Below, piece by piece: positions 7,551 to 22,415 of a stretch of 22,415 bases of DNA (its first letter is position 1; each line of letters starts with the position of its first letter). The notes under the pieces are model-generated. The model saw only the letters and a program-made list of their open reading frames with translations. It had not been told where the DNA came from and searched no databases. The position numbers were made by a program, and so were the translations under genes. Source of the stretch: a virus; the IMG/VR virus record IMGVR_UViG_3300000226_000161, positions 3,667 through 26,081 of that record. The stretch is one strand, 5' to 3'.

Positions 7551-8476
7551 AACTGTTAGAACAGAAAGTAGCATTCTTTTCAGAAACAGGAAATAACCAA
7601 AAGTATCCAAGAGATTTTCCAAACGCTCGTACAGAAGTAGCGTGGTGTTTGGCATTAGATGCTCCTATGTGTGCACTTGATGTATTACCAAGAGAAAAGT
7701 TTGATTTGGGTATTGTTATTATACCGAAGAATAATCCAAAGGTTAATTTAGATTTTATAAGAAAGTGTTGTGATAAAGTTGCAATAATGCAAGAAGGCCC
7801 ACATTGGTATTTTCAAGACTACGATATAGATAAACAGTTTCATTATTATAATACGTTGAGGTCGGCAGATTGGGTGTATTGTCATAATGAATCTGATGTG
7901 AAATATTATAGAGGATTAGGTTGTGAAGATGTAAGAGTGATGAGAAGCTTAATGATACCAGAAGATATCTTACCAAGAAGTGAATGGGGAGATGCCACTA
8001 TTATAGGTGGTAACTTTGTTAGTTGGTATGGTGGATTTGATTCTTATATTGTGGCGAGAGAAACAGATGCTACGATTTATGCACCATCAATGGGTAGAAA
8101 ACAAAAACAAGAAGATGCAATCGAAGATATTCAGTATTTACCATATATGACTTGGAGAGAGTGGATTAATAATTTATCACAATATAATATAGGAGTTCAT
8201 TTAATGAGAACTCACGCGGCAGGAACATTTGCTATGAATTGTGCATTTCATTCAATACCTTGTATTGGTTATAGAGGATTAGACACACAAGAAAATTGTC
8301 ATCCTAATTTGACAGTAGATGTAGGAGACTTAGAAACTGCAGTTAGAAAAGCACAGTTACTAAAAGAAGATATGGGTTATTATGATGAGTGTTCTCTTCA
8401 GGCACAAAAAGGATTTAGTGAGTATTATACAGAATATAAGTGGTTAGAGAATTGGAATAAACAATGGACAGAGTAA
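7547..8476 (+). CDS. Glycosyltransferase, GT-B fold (family 1/4-like)
   Basis: A 309-residue protein that looks like a short GT-B glycosyltransferase. The N-terminal half alternates strands and helices (DLGIVIIPK, KVAIMQEGPHWYF, ADWVYCHNESDVKYY), as in the acceptor domain of family 4 enzymes. The C-terminal half has Y-N-I-G-V-H-L-M-R-T-H-A-A-G-T-F-A-M-N-C-A-F-H-S-I-P-C-I-G-Y, the equivalent of the donor-binding loop, but the usual E-x7-E motif is not obvious. The link between domains is short compared with typical 350-400 residue enzymes. It sits between two GT-A genes and overlaps the next by 13 bases. Fold assignment is reasonable; activity is inferred. Confidence 0.68.
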   Translation: MKLLEQKVAFFSETGNNQKYPRDFPNARTEVAWCLALDAPMCALDVLPREKFDLGIVIIPKNNPKVNLDFIRKCCDKVAIMQEGPHWYFQDYDIDKQFHYYNTLRSADWVYCHNESDVKYYRGLGCEDVRVMRSLMIPEDILPRSEWGDATIIGGNFVSWYGGFDSYIVARETDATIYAPSMGRKQKQEDAIEDIQYLPYMTWREWINNLSQYNIGVHLMRTHAAGTFAMNCAFHSIPCIGYRGLDTQENCHPNLTVDVGDLETAVRKAQLLKEDMGYYDECSLQAQKGFSEYYTEYKWLENWNKQWTE

Positions 8477-10558: not shown

Positions 10559-11367
10559 GTAATGTAGTTGTCTATACTGCAATTTTTGGTGGATATGATT
10601 TTTTATATGAACCATTGGTTAAACCCGATAATGTAGATTATGTGTGTTTTACTGATAGTAAAGATATGAAATCTGATACTTGGGATATTAGATATACTTT
10701 ACCATTGTATAATAATCCAGAGTTGAAAAATCCAGCCGTAAGAAATGCAAGAAAGTATAAGGCACTACCACATAGATTTTTATCAGAATATGAGTATAGT
10801 GTTTGGGTAGATGGGAATGCACAATGTAGAGGTGATGTTAATGAATTGATACAGGAATATTTGTGGGATTATAATGAATCTTCTGATGGTGGTCAAACAG
10901 GAGCAATTATTCCAGCACATTCTTCACCTAAACCAAATATGGCCGTATATGATAAAATGAGTTGTGCACTTGATCCGTGGAATTGTATTTATGAAGAAGC
11001 CAGAAGGATATTTCAGTTTGGTGAAACGAATTTAGCAAGAGAACCTTGGAAGGGGATTAAAGCATATAAAGATGATCCTAAATTGATACAGAAACAAACT
11101 GATAAATATATGAGGGAAAATTTTCCACCAAATTTAGGATTATTAAGTGCAATGGTATTAGTTAGAAGACATATGGAAAAAGATGTGTGGATGACAGGAG
11201 AATCGTGGTGGGAAGAAATGAAATATTATAGTCATTTAGACCAAATGAGTTTTAATTATGTGGCGTGGAAAAGAAGATTAAATTTTAATTGGATAAAGGA
11301 AGATGTTAGAGAGTGTAGACACTTTCAACATAAAGGAATACATAAGGTGAAATTAGATGAAAAATAG
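10555..11367 (+). CDS. DUF616/TOD1-MUCI70-type glycosyltransferase
   Basis: A 270-residue GT-A-like protein of the DUF616 family. It has the family opening V-V-V-Y-T-A-I-F-G-G-Y-D, then D-Y-V-C-F-T-D, and A-R-K-Y-K-A-L-P-H-R-F-L leading into Y-S-V-W-V-D86-G-N88, where a D-x-N replaces the common D-x-D. A late S-H-L-D-Q-M-S-F-N-Y segment carries the second conserved D-Q motif. Related plant and bacterial proteins are annotated as glycosyltransferases, with few biochemically defined. GGAGAG at 10541-10546 is a strong ribosome site at the ATGA junction with the previous gene. The stop overlaps the next gene by 11 bases. Confidence 0.75.
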   Translation: MSNVVVYTAIFGGYDFLYEPLVKPDNVDYVCFTDSKDMKSDTWDIRYTLPLYNNPELKNPAVRNARKYKALPHRFLSEYEYSVWVDGNAQCRGDVNELIQEYLWDYNESSDGGQTGAIIPAHSSPKPNMAVYDKMSCALDPWNCIYEEARRIFQFGETNLAREPWKGIKAYKDDPKLIQKQTDKYMRENFPPNLGLLSAMVLVRRHMEKDVWMTGESWWEEMKYYSHLDQMSFNYVAWKRRLNFNWIKEDVRECRHFQHKGIHKVKLDEK

Positions 11368-12301
11368 ATATGATTTATTAATCACTGGAGGTAATGGATT
11401 AGTTGGTAAACATTTACAAAAATATATAATTAGTAATCATCCGTTAGAACCAGAAGGACAAGATACTGTAAAATATTTATCAAGTTTGGATGCAGACTTA
11501 ACTAATTATAAAGAAACAAGAGAAGTTTTAGCATATTACCATCCTAAAAGGGTTATACATTTGGCAGCAAGAGTGGGTGGTATTGAGGATAATATGAATT
11601 ATCCTATAGATTATTTAGAAACTAATTTAGCAATAGATACTAATGTGTTAAAGGCTAGCCAAGAACAAGGAGTTGAAAGATTAACTGCCTGTTTATCGAG
11701 TTGTATTTTTCCAGATGTGGTTGATAAATACCCAATGACAGAAGATGATGTTTTTAAAGGTAAGGCACCTGCTGGTAATTTTGCATATGCTATGGCTAAA
11801 AGAACTTTATTAACAAGAATAGAATCTTATAATAAACAACACGAGTTGAATTGGAATTGGGTAGCACCTTGTAATCTGTATGGAGAGTATGATAAATTTG
11901 AAGACCATCATAGTCATTTCATACCAGCATTACTTAAAAAGATTTATTATGCAACAGATAAGATAACATTGTTTGGTTCAGGAAAACCGTATAGACAATT
12001 TATGTACGCGGATGATTTGGCTAAAGTATTTAAATTTGTTATTGATAATGACATACTTGAAAGTTTTAATGTGGCACCCAATTTTAACTTCACAATTAAG
12101 GAAATGGCAGAAACGGCATTAAAAGTGTGTGGTAAAGAAAATTTAAAAATTGAATGGGATAGTGATAAACCAGATGGTCAGTTTAGAAAAGATATTAGTT
12201 CAGAAAAATTATTAGGATTATATCCTAATTTTGAATTTACAAGTTTAGAAGATGGTATGAAAAAAACATATGAAAAATTGAATGAGGTTTTAAATGATTA
12301 G
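11357..12301 (+). CDS. fcl: GDP-L-fucose synthase family SDR (Fcl or ColC-like)
   Basis: A 314-residue short-chain dehydrogenase of the GDP-fucose synthase family. These enzymes epimerise a GDP-4-keto-6-deoxy sugar and reduce it with NADPH. The nucleotide loop is T10-G-G-N-G-L-V-G17. The catalytic residues of E. coli Fcl are all recognisable: S114 and C116 in S-S-C-I-F-P, Y144 and K148 in Y-A-M-A-K, and H187 in H-S-H-F-I-P-A-L-L. G-K-P-Y-R-Q-F-M-Y-A-D-D-L and K-P-D-G-Q-F-R-K-D are further family signatures. Length fits the usual 310-320. Because a ColD-type dehydratase follows directly, it may act as GDP-colitose synthase (ColC) rather than on the fucose precursor; the sequence alone does not decide. 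AAGGTG at 11344-11349 supports the start. Confidence 0.9.
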   Translation: MKNRYDLLITGGNGLVGKHLQKYIISNHPLEPEGQDTVKYLSSLDADLTNYKETREVLAYYHPKRVIHLAARVGGIEDNMNYPIDYLETNLAIDTNVLKASQEQGVERLTACLSSCIFPDVVDKYPMTEDDVFKGKAPAGNFAYAMAKRTLLTRIESYNKQHELNWNWVAPCNLYGEYDKFEDHHSHFIPALLKKIYYATDKITLFGSGKPYRQFMYADDLAKVFKFVIDNDILESFNVAPNFNFTIKEMAETALKVCGKENLKIEWDSDKPDGQFRKDISSEKLLGLYPNFEFTSLEDGMKKTYEKLNEVLND

Positions 12302-13445
12302 TTTAGTAAAAGATACAATAGATGAAAAAGATATTGATAGATTAGTAGATTGGTTAAAAACTTACCCACGATTAACAAAGGGGACGGTAACATTAGAATT
12401 TGAAGAAAAGTTTTCTAATTGGTTAGGAAGAAAACATTCAGTATTTGTAAATTCTGGTTCATCTGCAAATCTATTGGTATTATCGGCATTACTACAAGGT
12501 AAGTATTTAAAAAATACTAAAATTGTAGTTCCATCCACGGCGTGGTCTACTGATTTGGCACCAGTAATACAATTAGGATTAAAACCTTTATTATGTGATT
12601 CTAACTTGAATGATTTATCAGTTGATTTAGAACACTTGGAAAAAATATTTGTAGACGAATCACCTTCGGCTTTATTGTTAGTATCAGTTCTTGGATTAGT
12701 ACCCGATATGGAAAATGTAGTAGAATTATGTGATAAGTATGATGTTATATTATTGGAAGATACTTGTGAGGCAATGGGTTGTGAATATATAGGACAAAAA
12801 CTCGGAACATTTGGATTGGCATCAACTTTCTCGACATTCTTTGGTCATCATATTTCTACAATTGAAGGTGGTATAATTTCAACTGATGATAAAGACTTTT
12901 ATGAGTTATTGGTATCTATAAGAAGTCACGGTTGGGATAGAGATTTGAGTAAAGAAACTCAAGTTAAGTTACAAAAAGAATGGGGAGTTTCAGAATTTAA
13001 TGCATTATATACATTTTATTATTCTGGATTTAATTTTAGGTCAACAGATTTACAGGCATATATTGGATTGACACAAATAGATAAATTGGACGATTGGGGA
13101 AAACGGAGAGAAGATAACTATTATCTTTATCAACGGTTAATAAATACAGAATGGAAACCAACTTCATACTTTGATTCTTTAACTTCTAATTTTGCATATC
13201 CAGTAATAAGTTCACATAGAGATAAGATAGTTAAAAAATTACAAGAAAATAAAGTTGAGGTTAGGCCAATGATATGTGGTTCAATGGGAACTCAACCATT
13301 TTATGTTAAACATTATGGAAGATTGGAATTACCAAATGTATCTCTAATAGACAGAGATGGATTTTATGTTCCCAACCATCCAAAATTAACAGTAGAAGAA
13401 ATAACATTTATTACAGAAATTATTAATGGAGAGATATCAGAATGA
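12294..13445 (+). CDS. colD: ColD-like GDP-4-keto-6-deoxymannose 3-dehydratase (DegT/DnrJ family, Lys to His)
   Basis: A 383-residue member of the DegT/DnrJ/EryC1/StrS family of PLP enzymes, close in length to E. coli ColD (388). It shows S-G-S-S-A-N (54-59) and E155-D156-T-C-E-A for cofactor binding. At the position of the Schiff-base lysine it has F-G-H185-H186-I-S-T-I-E-G-G: H185 aligns with the lysine, six residues before E191. This lysine-to-histidine change marks the dehydratases ColD and RfbH, which use PMP/PLP to remove a 3-hydroxyl, as opposed to aminotransferases such as perosamine synthase. The extra Fe-S cysteines of RfbH-type enzymes are not apparent, favouring ColD. It lies between an Fcl-like gene and gmd, the expected pathway partners; ColD also uses glutamate as amino donor. 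Confidence 0.87.
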   Translation: MISLVKDTIDEKDIDRLVDWLKTYPRLTKGTVTLEFEEKFSNWLGRKHSVFVNSGSSANLLVLSALLQGKYLKNTKIVVPSTAWSTDLAPVIQLGLKPLLCDSNLNDLSVDLEHLEKIFVDESPSALLLVSVLGLVPDMENVVELCDKYDVILLEDTCEAMGCEYIGQKLGTFGLASTFSTFFGHHISTIEGGIISTDDKDFYELLVSIRSHGWDRDLSKETQVKLQKEWGVSEFNALYTFYYSGFNFRSTDLQAYIGLTQIDKLDDWGKRREDNYYLYQRLINTEWKPTSYFDSLTSNFAYPVISSHRDKIVKKLQENKVEVRPMICGSMGTQPFYVKHYGRLELPNVSLIDRDGFYVPNHPKLTVEEITFITEIINGEISE

Positions 13446-14410
13446 AAAAGGCACTGATTACAGGAATCAACGGACAAGATGGTAGCTATTTATCCGAACT
13501 ATTATTAGAAAAGGGTTATGAGGTTTGGGGACTTTTAAAAAGAAATTCCGTAGCAGAAAATCAAACTGCGAGATTAGATGGTGTTTTTAAAAAAATAAAT
13601 CTTGAGTATGCAGATATGTTAGATTTGGCATCTCTCAATAGAGTATTAGAGCAAGTAAGGCCAGATGAGATATATAATTTGGCGGCACAATCTCACGTTA
13701 GAATATCATTCGACCAACCAATTTATACCACACAAGTAGTTGCAATTGGCACATTGAATATTTTGGAATCTATGAAATTGTTATGTCCTAATTCAAGATA
13801 CTATCAGGCATCTTCTTCAGAGATGTTTGGTAATTCATTTGATGACGATGGGTTTCAAAGAGAAACTACATCGATGAATCCCACAAGTCCGTATGGATGT
13901 GCAAAAGTTTATGGTTATAATATTACGAGAAATTATAGACATTCATATAATTTGTTTGCAAGTAATGGAATATTATTCAATCACGAATCACCAAGACGAG
14001 GAAGTAATTTTGTAACTAACAAAGTAGCAAAAGAGGCGGTGAGAATTAAATACGGACTAACAGATAAACTATTATTGGGTAATTTAGATGCAACTCGTGA
14101 TTGGGGTCATGCAAAAGACTATGTGAAATGTATGTGGTTAATGTTACAACACGATACTCCAGATGATTTTGTTTGTTCTACTGGTATATCACATTCAGTT
14201 AGAGAATTGTGTGAGCATGTGTTTGGTAAATTAGATTTAGATTATAAAGATTATGTTGGTGTGGATCAAAAATATATGAGACCAGAAGAATTAACTGATT
14301 TAAAAGGTGATTCGAGTAAAACTAGAAGAATACTTGATTGGAAACACGAATATACTTTTGAAACTATGTTAGATGAAATGGTTGAACATTGGGAAGTTAT
14401 ATATGGATAA
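13442..14410 (+). CDS. gmd: GDP-mannose 4,6-dehydratase
   Basis: Converts GDP-D-mannose to GDP-4-keto-6-deoxy-D-mannose, the branch point for GDP-fucose, -rhamnose, -perosamine and -colitose. Signatures: T7-G-I-N-G-Q-D-G-S-Y-L nucleotide loop, N-L-A-A-Q-S-H-V (79-86), S124-S-S-E127-M-F-G, P150-Y151-G-C-A-K155, then N-H-E-S-P-R-R-G, D-A-T-R-D-W-G-H-A-K-D-Y-V and R-P-E-E-L-T-D-L-K-G-D. S125, E127, Y151 and K155 correspond to the T/S-E-Y-K active site of the E. coli enzyme. At 322 residues it is a little shorter than the typical 345-370. GGAGAG at 13428-13433 sits eight bases before the ATG, which overlaps colD by ATGA. Host GDP-mannose is presumably the substrate, since no GDP-mannose pyrophosphorylase is visible here. 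Confidence 0.95.
   Translation: MKKALITGINGQDGSYLSELLLEKGYEVWGLLKRNSVAENQTARLDGVFKKINLEYADMLDLASLNRVLEQVRPDEIYNLAAQSHVRISFDQPIYTTQVVAIGTLNILESMKLLCPNSRYYQASSSEMFGNSFDDDGFQRETTSMNPTSPYGCAKVYGYNITRNYRHSYNLFASNGILFNHESPRRGSNFVTNKVAKEAVRIKYGLTDKLLLGNLDATRDWGHAKDYVKCMWLMLQHDTPDDFVCSTGISHSVRELCEHVFGKLDLDYKDYVGVDQKYMRPEELTDLKGDSSKTRRILDWKHEYTFETMLDEMVEHWEVIYG
14391..14396 (+). promoter_or_regulatory. Ribosome binding site that fixes the start at 14403
   Basis: GGGAAG lies six bases before the ATG at 14403. An in-frame ATG further upstream at 14373 has no Shine-Dalgarno and would add ten residues before the first strand, so 14403 is preferred. Confidence 0.6.
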
Positions 14411-16971: not shown

Positions 16972-17669
16972 ATATAGCAATATTCGGGGATAGTTTTGCA
17001 AATGGTGAAACTGATGGTAGTTTTAAGTTAAATCATTTAGGATTGACACAATACCTAATGGATGAGGGACATTTTGTAGTTAATTTTTCAAGACAAGGTA
17101 ATAGTAATCAAGGAGTTATAGAGGATTATTCTTATCATCTTAGACAAAACTTACATTTGAAGTTTGATATAGCGTTAGTATTTCAAACAGAACATACGAG
17201 GTCAACAACGGATTGGATTAATCATATAAAAAGTGGAATGAGTGTTAAAGAAGTAGATGTTCATATGAGCAAAGATTATTATGGGGAATTGTTAAAATCA
17301 CAAAAAGCATTCGGAGTTCCAATTTATTTAATAGGTGGAACTACAGATACATTATCTCCCGAGGTTATTAAGGAATGTGGATTGAATTCTGCATGTCAAA
17401 GTGTAGTAAACTTAGTTTTAACTGGAGAACATTTAATTAAAGAACCTATATTGTCTTTTGTATTTCCTTTACCTGCTTATGATATTTTAGATGAGTGTGA
17501 AGGTTTGATAGATGATAAGGAGTATTTTTTAAAGATAGAGAAAAGGGGAAATGATAGATATAAGTTGATGTTAGATAATCCAGAATATTTTTATCCTGAT
17601 GGAGTCCATCCGAATAGAAAGGCATATAAAATTTTATTTGACCATTTAAAAGAGAGTAATATAATATGA
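16968..17669 (+). CDS. SGNH-hydrolase-like protein (third of three)
   Basis: A 233-residue SGNH/GDSL-like protein. Block I is I-A-I-F-G7-D8-S9-F-A-N-G, block II is S-R-Q-G44-N45-S-N, and block V is Y-P-D211-G-V-H214-P-N, the standard D-x-x-H. This is the most canonical of the three copies in the window. No signal peptide is seen. The family includes esterases and acyltransferases; direction of reaction cannot be told. Both ends overlap neighbours by ATGA. The shared motifs but low similarity elsewhere suggest that the three copies arose long ago or came separately. Confidence 0.73.
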   Translation: MNIAIFGDSFANGETDGSFKLNHLGLTQYLMDEGHFVVNFSRQGNSNQGVIEDYSYHLRQNLHLKFDIALVFQTEHTRSTTDWINHIKSGMSVKEVDVHMSKDYYGELLKSQKAFGVPIYLIGGTTDTLSPEVIKECGLNSACQSVVNLVLTGEHLIKEPILSFVFPLPAYDILDECEGLIDDKEYFLKIEKRGNDRYKLMLDNPEYFYPDGVHPNRKAYKILFDHLKESNII

Positions 17670-18337
17670 TTAATGGAAAAACAGTAATGGGAATAACATT
17701 AGCCCGAGGTGGTTCTAAAGGAATACCACAAAAAAATGTTATAGATGTAAATGGGAAACCATTGATACAATATACTATAGATGAAGTTAAGAAAAGTAAA
17801 TATATTGACCACTACATTGTCAGTACAGATGATGAAGATATTAAAAATCTATGTAGAGAATTAAAACAAACATATTTTGATAGAAGTCCAGCAGAAGATA
17901 CACAAAAATCTTCGGATGGTTTATTGGAAGTTTTAAAAACTATGGATAAACCAGATTATATTGTGGAGATTATGTGTACAAATCCTTTGAAGACTGTAGC
18001 GGATATAGACGATGTGATACAGAAACTTGATATGACGGCCGCTGATTCTGTTTGTTCCGTTGTGAGAGTATGGGATCACCACCCATCAAGAGTTAAGTTT
18101 ATAAAGGGAAACCAAATGAAAGATGTTTATCCCGAAAAATTAGAAAGTAGAAGACAAGATTTAACACCACCAGCATATATTAGAAACGGTTCAATATATG
18201 CAATGACTTGGGAACAAATAAATGTCAAAGGTTCACGGTATGATAAAAATACTGTACCATATATTATGCCAGAAGAAAGAACAATTAATATAGATGAGCC
18301 AAATGATTTAGAATTAGCAAGGATACTATTACGATGA
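17666..18337 (+). CDS. neuA: CMP-sugar acid synthetase-like cytidylyltransferase (NeuA/PseF-type)
   Basis: Predicted to activate a 2-keto sugar acid (sialic, pseudaminic, legionaminic or similar) with CTP to give the CMP-sugar. The 223 residues match the usual length of bacterial single-domain enzymes. Signatures are L-A-R14-G-G-S-K18-G-I-P-Q-K-N24 (CTP-binding loop), V-S-T-D-D-E-D (52-58), Q80-K-S-S-D84-G-L-L-E-V-L, and T105-N-P-L-K-T-x-x-D-I-D. The last replaces the common Q-P-T-S-P-L-R-T-x-x-D-I, so the substrate may not be a standard one. P-P-A-Y-I-R-N-G-S-I-Y is also typical. No NeuB, NeuC or PseI synthase gene lies in the window, so the acid comes from elsewhere. Junctions on both sides are ATGA. 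Confidence 0.82.
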   Translation: MINGKTVMGITLARGGSKGIPQKNVIDVNGKPLIQYTIDEVKKSKYIDHYIVSTDDEDIKNLCRELKQTYFDRSPAEDTQKSSDGLLEVLKTMDKPDYIVEIMCTNPLKTVADIDDVIQKLDMTAADSVCSVVRVWDHHPSRVKFIKGNQMKDVYPEKLESRRQDLTPPAYIRNGSIYAMTWEQINVKGSRYDKNTVPYIMPEERTINIDEPNDLELARILLR

Positions 18338-19218
18338 AAGCATTAGTTACAGGAGGTGCCGGATTTATTGGCACCAATTTAATAAAAAGATTATTAAAAG
18401 ACGGACACGAAGTAGTATCAGTAGATAACTATTCTACTGGTAAAGAGGAAAATCATCAAGAGGGTTGTAGGTATCACGACTTTGATTTATCAAGTCCACA
18501 TACACTTGGGATTTATGTAGACCACGGCAGTTATCCTCATTGGAGAGATGAAAAATATGATGTTATATTTCATTTGGGAGCATTAGCAAGAATACAACCA
18601 TCATTAAAAAACCCATATAAAACAATGTTTAACAATTATGTAAGTACATTAAATATATTAGAATATGGTAGAAAAAATGATATTAAAGTTGTTTATGCAG
18701 GTTCATCATCAGTTCATGGTGGAGCATATGCTAATCCATATACTTTTACTAAATGGCAAGGTGATAAACTATGTCATATGTATAGTGAAGTATTTGATTT
18801 TCCAGTAAATGTTTGTAGATTTTATAATGTATACGGCCCACATCAATTAACAGAGGGTGAGTATTGTACAGTAGTTGGGATATTTGAAACTCAATATAAA
18901 AACGGTGAACCATTAACAATTACTTGGGATGGAGAACAAAGACGAGATTTTACTCACGTGGATGATATTGTTGAAGGATTAGTATTAACATCAGAATCTT
19001 CAAATTGGGGATTGACTTTAGAGTTAGGTAGAGGTAAAAATCATTCAATAAATGATTTAGTTGATATGTTTGGTGGAGATTATCCAAGAGAATATATAGA
19101 TAAAAGACCTGGAGAAATGAGGTCTACATTATGTGATTTAGGGTTGGCGTTTTCTGCAATAGGATATCAACCAACACGAGAATTAAAAGATTATATAGAT
19201 GAAGTAAAAAATGGATAA
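18334..19218 (+). CDS. NAD-dependent epimerase/dehydratase (extended SDR, GalE-like)
   Basis: A 294-residue extended SDR acting on a nucleotide sugar. The N-terminus carries T6-G-G-A-G-F-I-G13 and S-V-D31-N-Y-S-T-G, with the aspartate expected to select NAD over NADP. The catalytic residues are S124-S-S126 and Y136-T-F-T-K140. N-V-Y-G-P, R-R-D-F-T-H-V-D-D-I and K-R-P-G-E are further hallmarks. The residue set suits a UDP-sugar 4-epimerase or a related 4,6-dehydratase. It sits directly after the CMP-transferase, so another donor sugar or precursor for the same glycan is likely, but the substrate is not predictable. AAGGA at 18319-18323 supports the start. Confidence 0.82.
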   Translation: MKALVTGGAGFIGTNLIKRLLKDGHEVVSVDNYSTGKEENHQEGCRYHDFDLSSPHTLGIYVDHGSYPHWRDEKYDVIFHLGALARIQPSLKNPYKTMFNNYVSTLNILEYGRKNDIKVVYAGSSSVHGGAYANPYTFTKWQGDKLCHMYSEVFDFPVNVCRFYNVYGPHQLTEGEYCTVVGIFETQYKNGEPLTITWDGEQRRDFTHVDDIVEGLVLTSESSNWGLTLELGRGKNHSINDLVDMFGGDYPREYIDKRPGEMRSTLCDLGLAFSAIGYQPTRELKDYIDEVKNG

Positions 19219-20254
19219 AATTTTATTTGTAACCTCTATCTATCGTACTGGAGAGAAAATATTTCCCATCATACCAGAATTAGTTAAACATTTTTCAGTT
19301 GAATTGTTGACCGTGAATGAAATGTGTTTTGATTATGAGTGGTATGGTAACAAGGATTTGAGATTACAATTCTTTGACCGATGGGGAGATTATTTTGACG
19401 AATCATATGAGACTTCATTTAAAGATGTTAAGGCAGGTAAATTAGATTTAACACCTTACAAATTTATTCTATTAGATGATTTAAGACCAAGATATAACTT
19501 GGATAAGTTTTATGATTTTGCTAAAAAATGTGGAACTCCAGTTATTGCAAACACACACGGTAATATTGGTAAACCACACATACCTAATGGATATCAGAAA
19601 GCATTTGATAAAGTATTTGTAGTGGGACAATCAGAATACGACAGAGATAAGGATAATGTACCAGAAGGAACAATGATTAAAGGTGGATTACCATCAAGTG
19701 ATAAATTAAAAGATATAGATAAAACAGGAGAACATATATTAGTAATATGTAATTTCTTGGGAAATCGTTGGGGGCCATTTGAGAAGTTTGACCGTAAAGT
19801 AGTTGTTAAATTAAAGTTAAAAGAATTACAAGATGAATTAGATTTACCAATTAAATACAAATTAAAAAGTAGAGAAGACCATCCTTACCCACAAAAGGAT
19901 TTTGAATACATTGATAGTATTTCTCATGATTTAAAATATGAAACCATAATGGATATAGGAGATGATTCAGAATTAATTGCAAAATCTAAAATTGTAATTT
20001 CTCACGGATCCTGTATGGTGTTTAAATCAATACAGAAAAACATACCAACTATACTGATAAAGGAACTTGGGGATGTGGCACTATTTGTTGATAATTACCC
20101 AGATTTATATTCAAAGGAAGACGATTTATTACCAATATATTTAGATAAGATAAATAGTGGAGTAGATTATTCAGATTTTATCAAAGTAAGTGTTGAGGGC
20201 GGATTTACTTTTACTTCAACTGAAATTTATATGAAAGAATTATTAAAGTTGTGA
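19211..20254 (+). CDS. GT-B-like putative glycosyltransferase
   Basis: A 347-residue protein with two Rossmann-like halves. The first opens with K-I-L-F-V-T-S-I-Y-R-T-G and contains V-I-A-N-T-H-G-N-I-G-K-P and A-F-D-K-V-F-V-V-G-Q-S-E-Y-D-R, like the N-terminal domain of glycerophosphotransferase or 2-epimerase-like GT-B proteins. The second has S-E-L-I-A-K-S-K-I-V-I-S-H-G-S-C-M-V-F-K-S and P-T-I-L-I-K-E-L-G, where the H-G-S loop would bind a nucleotide phosphate. No named family is certain. It overlaps the upstream SDR by eight bases and the downstream gene by GTGA. Confidence 0.58.
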   Translation: MDKILFVTSIYRTGEKIFPIIPELVKHFSVELLTVNEMCFDYEWYGNKDLRLQFFDRWGDYFDESYETSFKDVKAGKLDLTPYKFILLDDLRPRYNLDKFYDFAKKCGTPVIANTHGNIGKPHIPNGYQKAFDKVFVVGQSEYDRDKDNVPEGTMIKGGLPSSDKLKDIDKTGEHILVICNFLGNRWGPFEKFDRKVVVKLKLKELQDELDLPIKYKLKSREDHPYPQKDFEYIDSISHDLKYETIMDIGDDSELIAKSKIVISHGSCMVFKSIQKNIPTILIKELGDVALFVDNYPDLYSKEDDLLPIYLDKINSGVDYSDFIKVSVEGGFTFTSTEIYMKELLKL

Positions 20255-21324
20255 AAATAAATAAGGTTATAGGATATGGTTTAACTTCTCCAACTAAAGA
20301 AGATTTTGTATATTATGGTTATCAAACTACATCAAAAAATGTAGGGATAATAGAAGTTCATTTTGATAATGGTATTGTTGGATATGGGGAAACATATGCT
20401 GGAGTTTATTGTATTGAATTGATTGAGCCAGCTGTAAAATATCTTGAACAATTTTTAATAGGAGCAGAAGATAATTTCAATGTAATTATAGAAAATATAC
20501 CGTATATAGGAAAGAGTGGACTTCTTAGAAGTATATATAGTGGGATAGAAATAGCAATTTATGATGCTTTAAGCAAACATAGCAATGTTCCCTTTTGGAA
20601 GTACTTATCTTCAACTTCAAAAGAACCACAACTGTATGCCAGTAATGGTTCAGCTCTATATACTTCTTCCCAAATTGAACAAGATGTGAAAAATATTTTA
20701 GATAAGGGTTATACTTCTTATAAAATGAGAATTGGGGTACAATCTAAAAAACAAGATATAAAAAGATTAAAAGTAGCCCGTAAATATTTAGGGGATAATA
20801 ATTTAATGGTTGATGCCATTATGGGTACAAACCCAAATAAATGGGATTTAAAGACTGCTATTGAATGGAGTGAAATTTTAAAAGATTTTAATGTTTATTG
20901 GTTAGAAGAACCGTTTAGTCCTGATGAAGTGATTAAATATAAATTTCTCATGGAATATGGTATACCTATTGCTGGTGGAGAAGCGTTAAACCAACAATTA
21001 GAGTTTAATACTTATTTTGAAAAACAATTAGTTGACACTATTCAGCCTGATGTTACTAATTGTGGGGGAGTAATAGAATGTATTAGAATAATAGAAATGT
21101 TTAAACCTAAAAATGTAGCTATGCATGTTTGGGGAAGTCAAATATCTATTAATGCTAATAATCATATAGCTCAGGCATGTGGTGTAAAATTTTTAGAAAT
21201 ACCTATGATGGAATTAGAAATAAATGATTATATTGACCAAGAAGGGCCTGGGATTGGGATTAATATAACAGAAGACATAAAACAAAAATATAAACTTAAA
21301 AACAGAGTAAATTTTAAATTATGA
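20251..21324 (+). CDS. Enolase-superfamily protein, mandelate racemase/sugar-acid dehydratase-like
   Basis: A 357-residue enolase-superfamily member of the mandelate racemase group, which racemises or dehydrates carboxylate sugars through a Mg-stabilised enolate. The capping domain is N-terminal (V-G-Y-G-E47-T). Barrel motifs in order are Y-K158-M-R160 (the usual KxK with Arg second), D188 in M-V-D-A, W-L-E219-E220-P-F, A-G-G-E244-A-L, Q-P-D267 and M-H292-V-W-G. The Asp-His dyad D267/H292 is intact and could serve as the base. Product would be a 2-keto-3-deoxy acid if it is a dehydratase. The start is GTG at 20251, the only non-ATG start here, because no in-frame ATG occurs before residue 159 and it keeps the four-base GTGA overlap. 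Substrate is unknown. Confidence 0.85.
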   Translation: MKINKVIGYGLTSPTKEDFVYYGYQTTSKNVGIIEVHFDNGIVGYGETYAGVYCIELIEPAVKYLEQFLIGAEDNFNVIIENIPYIGKSGLLRSIYSGIEIAIYDALSKHSNVPFWKYLSSTSKEPQLYASNGSALYTSSQIEQDVKNILDKGYTSYKMRIGVQSKKQDIKRLKVARKYLGDNNLMVDAIMGTNPNKWDLKTAIEWSEILKDFNVYWLEEPFSPDEVIKYKFLMEYGIPIAGGEALNQQLEFNTYFEKQLVDTIQPDVTNCGGVIECIRIIEMFKPKNVAMHVWGSQISINANNHIAQACGVKFLEIPMMELEINDYIDQEGPGIGINITEDIKQKYKLKNRVNFKL

Positions 21325-22214
21325 TAATTTATACTGATTTACATAACAGAACAAAAAATTATACTTTACCAGAAGATAGAAAACAAGAAATAAATAAAAA
21401 ATTTAATGTTCAAATAGTAACAACAATAAATTCTAAAGCAGAAGTATATTGGGGGGATAAGTTAACAAATGAACATTTAATTAAAATGCCCAACTTAAAA
21501 TGGATACATTTATCTAAAACTGGGTGGCGTGGAAAATTTAATTTCCCTGACGGTGTAATTGTTACATATAGTCCTAAAAGTTCTGAAGGTGTAGCGGAAT
21601 ATGCTTTAACGGGCATTTTATATTTATTAAGAGGAATAGATAGGATGGATTTAGATAGAAAATCATTTGATTCTAATATGGAGTACATTTTACCTTTTAA
21701 TGAAGTTAAATGTTTAATAGTAGGTTATGGGAATATAGGAAAAAAACTTGAAGGATTATTGAAATCTATTGGGATAAAAGTAGATGTAATAGACAAAAAT
21801 AATTTTCAGAATCTTGATAAGTTGGTAAAAAATAATAACTTTGTTATAAATTGTCTACCTTTAAATAATTCAACAAAGGAATGTTTTAAATTATCTACTT
21901 TTACTTCTATGAGTTCATATTCATATTTTATAAATGTAGGTAGAGGTGAAACAGTAAATGAAAAAGATTTGTTTTATGTTTTAGATAATAATTTTATTAG
22001 AGGGGCCTTTTTAGATGTAGTTCAAAATGAACCTATAAAAAAAGACAATCAGTTATTATATTTAGATAATATTTTTATTTCACCACATATTGCTAATTTT
22101 TCAAATAAAAGCCAGGACATTCAAATAAAAGATTTTATAGTTAATCTATCACGGTATAATCAAAATAAACCATTATTAAATGTAGTATATAATTCAATCG
22201 GAGAAAAAATATGA
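21321..22214 (+). CDS. D-isomer-specific 2-hydroxyacid dehydrogenase
   Basis: A 297-residue NAD-dependent oxidoreductase that interconverts 2-hydroxy and 2-keto acids. The Rossmann loop is G135-Y-G-N-I-G140. Catalytic residues are R208 in N-V-G-R-G, E237 in N-E-P and H256 in S-P-H-I-A, all conserved. S65-K-T-G-W-R, S-S-E-G-V-A-E (87-93) and L-D-V-V (231-234) are also family positions. It is shorter than the typical 310-330 and has an acidic D158 after the second strand that fits NAD preference. It directly follows the enolase-superfamily gene by ATGA, which suggests that both act on related sugar acids or keto acids, but the substrate is inferred only from position. Confidence 0.88.
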   Translation: MIIYTDLHNRTKNYTLPEDRKQEINKKFNVQIVTTINSKAEVYWGDKLTNEHLIKMPNLKWIHLSKTGWRGKFNFPDGVIVTYSPKSSEGVAEYALTGILYLLRGIDRMDLDRKSFDSNMEYILPFNEVKCLIVGYGNIGKKLEGLLKSIGIKVDVIDKNNFQNLDKLVKNNNFVINCLPLNNSTKECFKLSTFTSMSSYSYFINVGRGETVNEKDLFYVLDNNFIRGAFLDVVQNEPIKKDNQLLYLDNIFISPHIANFSNKSQDIQIKDFIVNLSRYNQNKPLLNVVYNSIGEKI

Positions 22215-22415
22215 TAAGCACCAATTCAGAAAAATATAGTGTAGTTCTTAGAGTAAGGAATGAGGAAAGATGGGTTGGATATGCAATCCAATCAATAGTT
22301 GACCACATTGGAGAATCTTGTGAAATAATAATTGTAAATAATGGTACGACAGATGATTCACTTAGGATTGTTAATTTATTTGAGTATCTTGATATAAGGA
22401 AAATAGATATACCAA
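22211..22415 (+). CDS. Glycosyltransferase family 2, partial (cut by window end)
   Basis: The ATG at 22211 overlaps the preceding stop by ATGA and opens a frame that runs to the window end (68 residues visible). Residues 10-20 are S-V-V-L-R-V-R-N-E-E-R, followed by A-I-Q-S-I and I-I-V-N-N-G-T-T-D-D-S, the standard GT2 N-terminus in which the N-N-G-x-x-D-D-S segment binds the nucleotide. The DXD motif and acceptor part would lie beyond the window. It shows that the glycan operon continues to the right. Confidence 0.82.
   Translation, partial: MISTNSEKYSVVLRVRNEERWVGYAIQSIVDHIGESCEIIIVNNGTTDDSLRIVNLFEYLDIRKIDIP

Follow-up and report, generated by a model that had tools for sequence, protein, structure and literature searches.

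The phage DNA examined here, a stretch of 22,415 nucleotides (the window) that spans positions 3667-26081 of the 28,313-base, linear-classed IMG/VR record IMGVR_UViG_3300000226_000161, carries a cassette in which a NeuA-like cytidine monophosphate (CMP)-transferase shares an operon with an enolase-superfamily enzyme of the mandelate-racemase type (hereafter the enolase) and a D-2-hydroxyacid dehydrogenase (2HADH). Within NeuA, the CMP-transferase is a member of a separate subclade that appears not to have been described before, and 2HADH is a real functional partner of this subclade, as seen from fusion proteins and operons elsewhere. We give an even chance to the explanation that we favor, namely that a synthase encoded outside this record makes a non-sialic ulosonic acid and the cassette activates it, with the enolase and the 2HADH tailoring this acid or its precursor. 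Nucleotide-activated ulosonic acids are generally made by condensation of a sugar with phosphoenolpyruvate.

A NeuA subclade partnered by a 2-hydroxyacid dehydrogenase

The window NeuA carries a CTP_transf_3 domain with the RxGSKGxPxKN nucleotide motif, and phylogenetic analysis placed it in a clade (support 99/95) with NeuAs that either form fusion proteins with a 2HADH or share an operon with one. This subclade is marked by EL(M/P)C in place of the Gln of QPTSPLR, by Asn in place of the first Asp of DID, and by a one-residue insertion after RRQDL; the window protein reads EIMCTNPLKT, INID and RRQDLTPPAYIRNG at these sites. Ordinary NeuAs keep both the QPTSPLR Gln and DID, and the window NeuA has neither. 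This Gln corresponds to Gln104 of Neisseria meningitidis CSS, which contacts sialic acid, and the DID aspartates bind magnesium. Since the sialic-type Gln and the first DID Asp are replaced, the subclade, judging from this signature, probably activates an acid other than sialic acid. The enzyme thus shares the CMP-transferase fold and the RGGSKGIPxKN motif with the NeuB/NeuA pathways for sialic, legionaminic and pseudaminic acid, but differs from them in these two replacements and in the lack of a synthase in the record. The curated PseF model scored the window NeuA at 106.8 bits, below its cut-off of 205.7, and the curated KdsB models left it far under their cut-offs.

Among the NeuAs of 398 Pseudomonadota genomes, one set was conspicuous for its 45-48% identity to the window NeuA, with 46-48% for those in operons of the order NeuA-2HADH-NeuB-GT2 (loci L223-L226, L229 and L230), where GT2 is a family-2 glycosyltransferase. 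A NeuA-2HADH pair was found at two further loci (L233, L235), and five cellular genomes (L238-L242) encode natural NeuA::2HADH fusions 590-630 residues long; two of these genomes (L239, L241) have a short NeuB gene a few kb from the fusion gene. Counting in six frames, we found a 2HADH within 2 kb of NeuA or fused to it at 13 of the 20 subclade loci, compared to 1 of 60 other NeuA loci from Pseudomonadota, Bacillota and Spirochaetota. In these settings NeuA and 2HADH are normally a NeuB-dependent pair. We found no paper on a NeuA-2HADH fusion or operon in the open-access literature, and the 2HADH-fused subclade points to an uncharacterised branch of ulosonic-acid chemistry in bacteria and phages. 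One branch of the subclade has neither 2HADH nor NeuB nearby (L227, L228, L231, L232, L234, L236); at several of these loci the neighbors resemble an isomerase of the FKBP type and a GmhB-like phosphatase.

Source of the activated acid

That the NeuA-like protein occurs without a NeuB/PseI-type condensing enzyme in the window had been pointed out in the first-pass annotation, and this absence extends to the whole record. Neither NeuB (PF03102) nor KdsA/DAHP synthase (PF00793) was detected anywhere in its 28.3 kb, which is a fragment and so does not imply absence from the entire genome. The 6 kb of extra record just outside the window, which is all the flanking sequence that the record covers, held no synthase, and no synthase or aldolase was found among the other scanned island proteins of the record.

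Relatives of the cassette show how such an acid may be supplied. All 10 subclade genomes tested for NeuB were positive, often with NeuB on a separate contig, so the synthase need not adjoin NeuA. Four of 29 viral NeuA loci of 15 kb or more likewise have no NeuB close by, and related phages carry other CTP-transferases and synthases in separate islands. The cellular operons and fusions (L223-L226, L229, L230, L238-L242) resemble the phage cassette in the NeuA subclade and its signature, in having a 2HADH and in their related terminal GT2; they differ from it in having NeuB and an orthologous 2HADH, both of which the phage lacks, having an enolase-superfamily enzyme instead. The closest viral parallel is phage L077 (IMGVR_UViG_3300031801_000949), which has the same island and flanking genes, a NeuA of the same clade (41-42% identity), a 2HADH and a short-chain dehydrogenase/reductase (SDR), in the order NeuB, NeuA, 2HADH, GT2, SDR. 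Unlike the window, it carries NeuB, formyltransferase and polysaccharide-deacetylase genes and no enolase. Another CMP-acid cassette in related phages (L143:394-6532) holds a DAHP-synthase-type gene, two CTP-transferases, one of them fused to a cupin, a class III aminotransferase-like protein, a SIS-like protein, a GT29 sialyltransferase and a GT2.

We therefore favor, at the even chance given above, a phage glycan cassette that would activate and then transfer an acidic sugar. The CMP-transferase, with its D-2-hydroxyacid dehydrogenase, would probably activate a non-sialic 2-keto sugar acid. Relatives build the keto acid with a NeuB-type synthase, a gene that the known 28 kb of this phage would have lost or never had, and we infer that the acid is most likely supplied by the host or by a synthase that the phage encodes in a different island. 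The enolase and the non-orthologous 2HADH would most likely act on the acid, or on a hydroxy- or keto-acid precursor or substituent of it. In the enolase step this would be alpha-proton chemistry, with a His292-Asp267 base and a metal-bound carboxylate, and the 2HADH would follow with NAD-dependent keto/hydroxy interconversion.

Several findings weigh against supply by a synthase encoded elsewhere. First, for this phage no synthase was actually seen in the 28.3-kb record. Second, such an absence is unusual: scans of viral contigs, made for NeuA, 2HADH and the enolase with alignment queries, gave 56 NeuA loci, 29 of them at least 15 kb long, and of these longer loci 25 had NeuB within 10 kb (a 2HADH was present in 1 of the 29, phage L077, and an enolase in 0). 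Third, the 20 subclade loci come mainly from one group of related genomes and are not independent events; phage L077 and a Spirochaetota locus (L325, NeuA-2HADH-NeuB) add independent lineages. Lastly, the ordinary NeuB route would give no easy account of why both an enolase and a foreign 2HADH were brought in.

The enolase-superfamily enzyme

The enolase and the 2HADH are metabolic enzymes almost never seen in viruses. We compared the residues of the enolase with those of 22 homologues at 24-31% identity. It keeps the metal ligands, the first Lys of strand 2, the His-Asp dyad and the C-terminal Glu (K158, D188, E219/E220, E244, D267, H292, E321). The second Lys of the KxK motif is replaced by Arg (K158-M-R160; Lys in 20 of the 22 homologues), and the Asn of DxN is replaced by Ile and followed by a short insertion (D188-A-I190; Asn in all 22). 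An AlphaFold2 model was confident, with a predicted local distance difference test score (pLDDT) of 85 and a predicted template-modeling (TM) score of 0.88, and a fold search matched it to structures of the mandelate-racemase type (TM 0.85-0.88), including acid-sugar dehydratases and cycloisomerases. The enzyme resembles such dehydratases and cycloisomerases (3ozm, 5olc, 5xd7, L-talarate/galactarate dehydratase) in fold, metal ligands and His-Asp dyad, but is only 22-25% identical to them, reads KxR and DxI where they read KxK and DxN, and stands in a biosynthetic viral setting. None of the curated dehydratase models reached its cut-off, the best being arabinonate dehydratase at 115.6 bits against 650. 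By its residues the enolase is not a textbook acid-sugar dehydratase, and because the second Lys of KxK and the Asn of DxN are lost, ordinary dehydratase chemistry is not to be assumed. A one-base mechanism via the His-Asp dyad is possible.

These features bear on the dehydration-first route already suggested in the first-pass annotation, in which the enolase would turn an aldonic acid into a 2-keto-3-deoxy acid for the CMP-transferase to activate. With the 2HADH setting the oxidation state of the 2-keto or 2-hydroxy acid, the route would take the place of NeuB. The intact metal ligands and His-Asp dyad speak for it, as does a fold nearest to acid-sugar dehydratases and cycloisomerases. Also in favor of the route, the entire island lies between conserved phage flanks within the record and contains no synthase, and the enolase is located between NeuA and GT2. 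Of the cellular operon, the phage has the outer genes, NeuA and a related GT2, and the 2HADH and NeuB in the middle are swapped for an enolase and a different 2HADH, a change that hits exactly the part that makes the precursor. Sister phages also pair another CTP-transferase with Ldh_2 and Gfo/Idh without a nearby NeuB. Against it, besides the altered motifs and the missed dehydratase cut-offs, the known mandelate-racemase-type dehydratases yield C5-C6 acids, members of this NeuA clade occur alongside a NeuB-type synthase in other genomes, and no second genome with both NeuA and the enolase was found in the viral or sampled cellular scans. What stood up of the suggestion was a NeuA that is not ordinary, its partnership with 2HADH, and a NeuB gene missing from the record; the NeuA-2HADH pair itself is no evidence for the route, because it works with NeuB in cells and in the related phage. 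We regard dehydration of an aldonic acid as the first step as possible, on the unlikely side. That the virus has replaced the condensing step in this way, with the enolase and the 2HADH making a 2-keto acid from a sugar acid and the NeuA-subclade enzyme activating it with CTP, we hold to be rather unlikely. If this phage does bypass NeuB, the biosynthesis of a surface sugar would have made use of chemistry from sugar-acid catabolism, and gene finders based on NeuB would overlook such pathways. In the open-access literature we found no paper containing both 'mandelate racemase' and 'acylneuraminate cytidylyltransferase', which does not by itself prove novelty.

The same two losses could mean that the enolase has decayed and is kept as a remnant or scaffold of a former enzyme. 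Its three metal-ligand positions, first Lys, His-Asp dyad and C-terminal Glu are all retained, in an open frame that is predicted to fold well, and we consider decay highly improbable.

No close relative of the enolase turned up in viruses or in the genomes sampled. In viral contigs the alignment query gave only four weak, unrelated hits, and the matches in annotated phage records were all weak and resemble host-derived fragments. Among predicted viral structures there was one full-length match, a Megaviridae protein. A scan of genome contigs gave ten distant enolases, several of them within catabolic clusters, and no close orthologue was present among the 398 Pseudomonadota genomes or the 251 Chloroflexota genomes sampled, where the best matches were 31-35% identical.

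The 2-hydroxyacid dehydrogenase of the window

The window 2HADH keeps the catalytic residues R208, E237 and H256 and the GxGxxG motif, and it has an NAD-type Asp158 at the adenosine site. An Asp at this site goes with NADH in several subfamilies of the 2HADH superfamily (PMC6303947). In a phylogenetic tree the NeuA-linked 2HADHs, whether from operons, fusions or phage L077, form a single clade (100/97), and a 97/96 split separates the window 2HADH from it and puts it with the GhrA side. Forcing it into the NeuA-linked clade was weakly rejected in the approximately unbiased (AU) test (p 0.036), and joining it to the 2HADHs of enolase-containing catabolic clusters was likewise rejected (AU p 0.030). 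Its placement outside the NeuA-linked clade is a moderate result, because its branch is long.

This placement raises the alternative that the enolase and the 2HADH are unrelated to the CMP-transferase, having come as a pair from a sugar-acid catabolic cluster, that they process another metabolite, and that they adjoin it by chance in a crowded island whose gene content changes quickly. Some of the closest enolases do lie in catabolic clusters with 2HADHs (L058, L070), such pairs are found near each other in Bacilli, and the SDR that intervenes in the cassette occurs generally in this phage group. However, the gene overlaps of 4-8 bp run unbroken through GT2, catabolism has no obvious use amid glycosyltransferases and nucleotide-sugar genes, no transporter or aldolase accompanies the two genes, and the window 2HADH stands apart from the catabolic pair as well. 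We consider a chance neighborhood unlikely.

Sister phages have a row of three genes at L033:6758-9616 (also in L009 and L035/L036) that encode a Gfo/Idh/MocA protein, an Ldh_2 protein of the malate/L-lactate dehydrogenase family and a divergent CTP-transferase. Such rows suggest that 2-hydroxyacid dehydrogenases of unrelated families recur next to CTP-transferases.

Cassette organization

The reading frames and Pfam matches bore out the coordinates and families assigned earlier to the NeuA-like, mandelate-racemase-type and 2-hydroxyacid dehydrogenase genes (Table 1). From 16968 onward each gene overlaps the next by 4-8 bp (ATGA/GTGA coupling); since these overlaps continue throughout, the open reading frames of the cassette are not chance. 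The SDR and an orphan protein stand between the CMP-transferase and the enolase, and GT2 comes after the 2HADH.

Table 1. Genes of the CMP-transferase cassette, in window coordinates
Feature	Position	Strand	Family match
NeuA-like CMP-transferase, 223 aa, 2HADH-partnered subclade	17666..18337	+	Pfam CTP_transf_3 1.1e-23
SDR nucleotide-sugar epimerase	18334..19218	+	Pfam Epimerase 7e-41
Orphan protein, 347 aa	19211..20254	+	no family match
Enolase-superfamily enzyme, mandelate-racemase type, 357 aa, GTG start	20251..21324	+	Pfam MR_MLE_C 4e-37, also MR_MLE_N
D-2-hydroxyacid dehydrogenase (2HADH), 297 aa	21321..22214	+	Pfam 2-Hacid_dh_C 2e-33
Family-2 glycosyltransferase (GT2), start; 236 aa, runs to record position 26587	22211..22415	+	Pfam Glycos_transf_2 3e-14

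Homologues of the GT2 are the terminal gene of the cellular NeuA-2HADH-NeuB-GT2 operons (82-92 bits) and of the KdsA/GT29 cassette in related phages (204 bits). It is likely, though unproved, that this GT2 is the transferase for the activated acid. We rejected the SDR as part of the NeuA module: its orthologues adjoin a GT2 of the type encoded at 8464 in many related phages (L134-L157), making it a common gene of the phage group and probably not specific to NeuA. The orphan had no match in Pfam, PHROG, NCBIfam, phage or PDB searches, and a model built from its single sequence, without an alignment, was uninformative (pLDDT 33).

Phage record and flanking genes

The record is a fragment of a marine T4-like phage whose actual genome is much larger. 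Its left flank encodes a DNA methylase-like protein, a T4-type clamp-loader ATPase and a ClpP-like protease; the nearest records to the ATPase are an uncultured 484-kb phage (47%), followed by marine T4-like phages (~40%). In the remainder of the window, glycosyltransferase and nucleotide-sugar genes form a dense island. At the right end of the record (L002) are an 80-aa gene and a 192-aa gene, homologues of which border the same type of island in related phages. With phage genes on both sides, the island is not host DNA joined in error. Single N bases occur just beyond both window ends (L001:3660-3666, L002:283-305), and one of these clusters falls within the GT2 gene. Sister contigs with 90-100% identity across the left part end before 17666, so none of them tells whether the cassette is shared.

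Host-recognition islands rich in glycosyltransferases are known from marine T4-like phages (pelagimyophages, PMC7029224), and the island described here is like them in being hypervariable, in its glycosyltransferases and sugar-nucleotide genes, and in its marine T4-like phage setting. The text of that paper mentions no cytidylyltransferase, sialic acid or hydroxyacid dehydrogenase genes.

Elsewhere in the island, three adjacent genes at 11357-14410 of the window resemble a GDP-colitose-type route in a phage, with 90-95% identity to sister phage L035. They encode an Fcl-like reductase (11357), a ColD-like dehydratase of the pyridoxal phosphate-dependent type (12294) and Gmd (13442). In the ColD-like protein the catalytic Lys is replaced by His, and its nearest solved structure is ColD (204 bits); ColD-like genes were also seen in phages L089 and L093.

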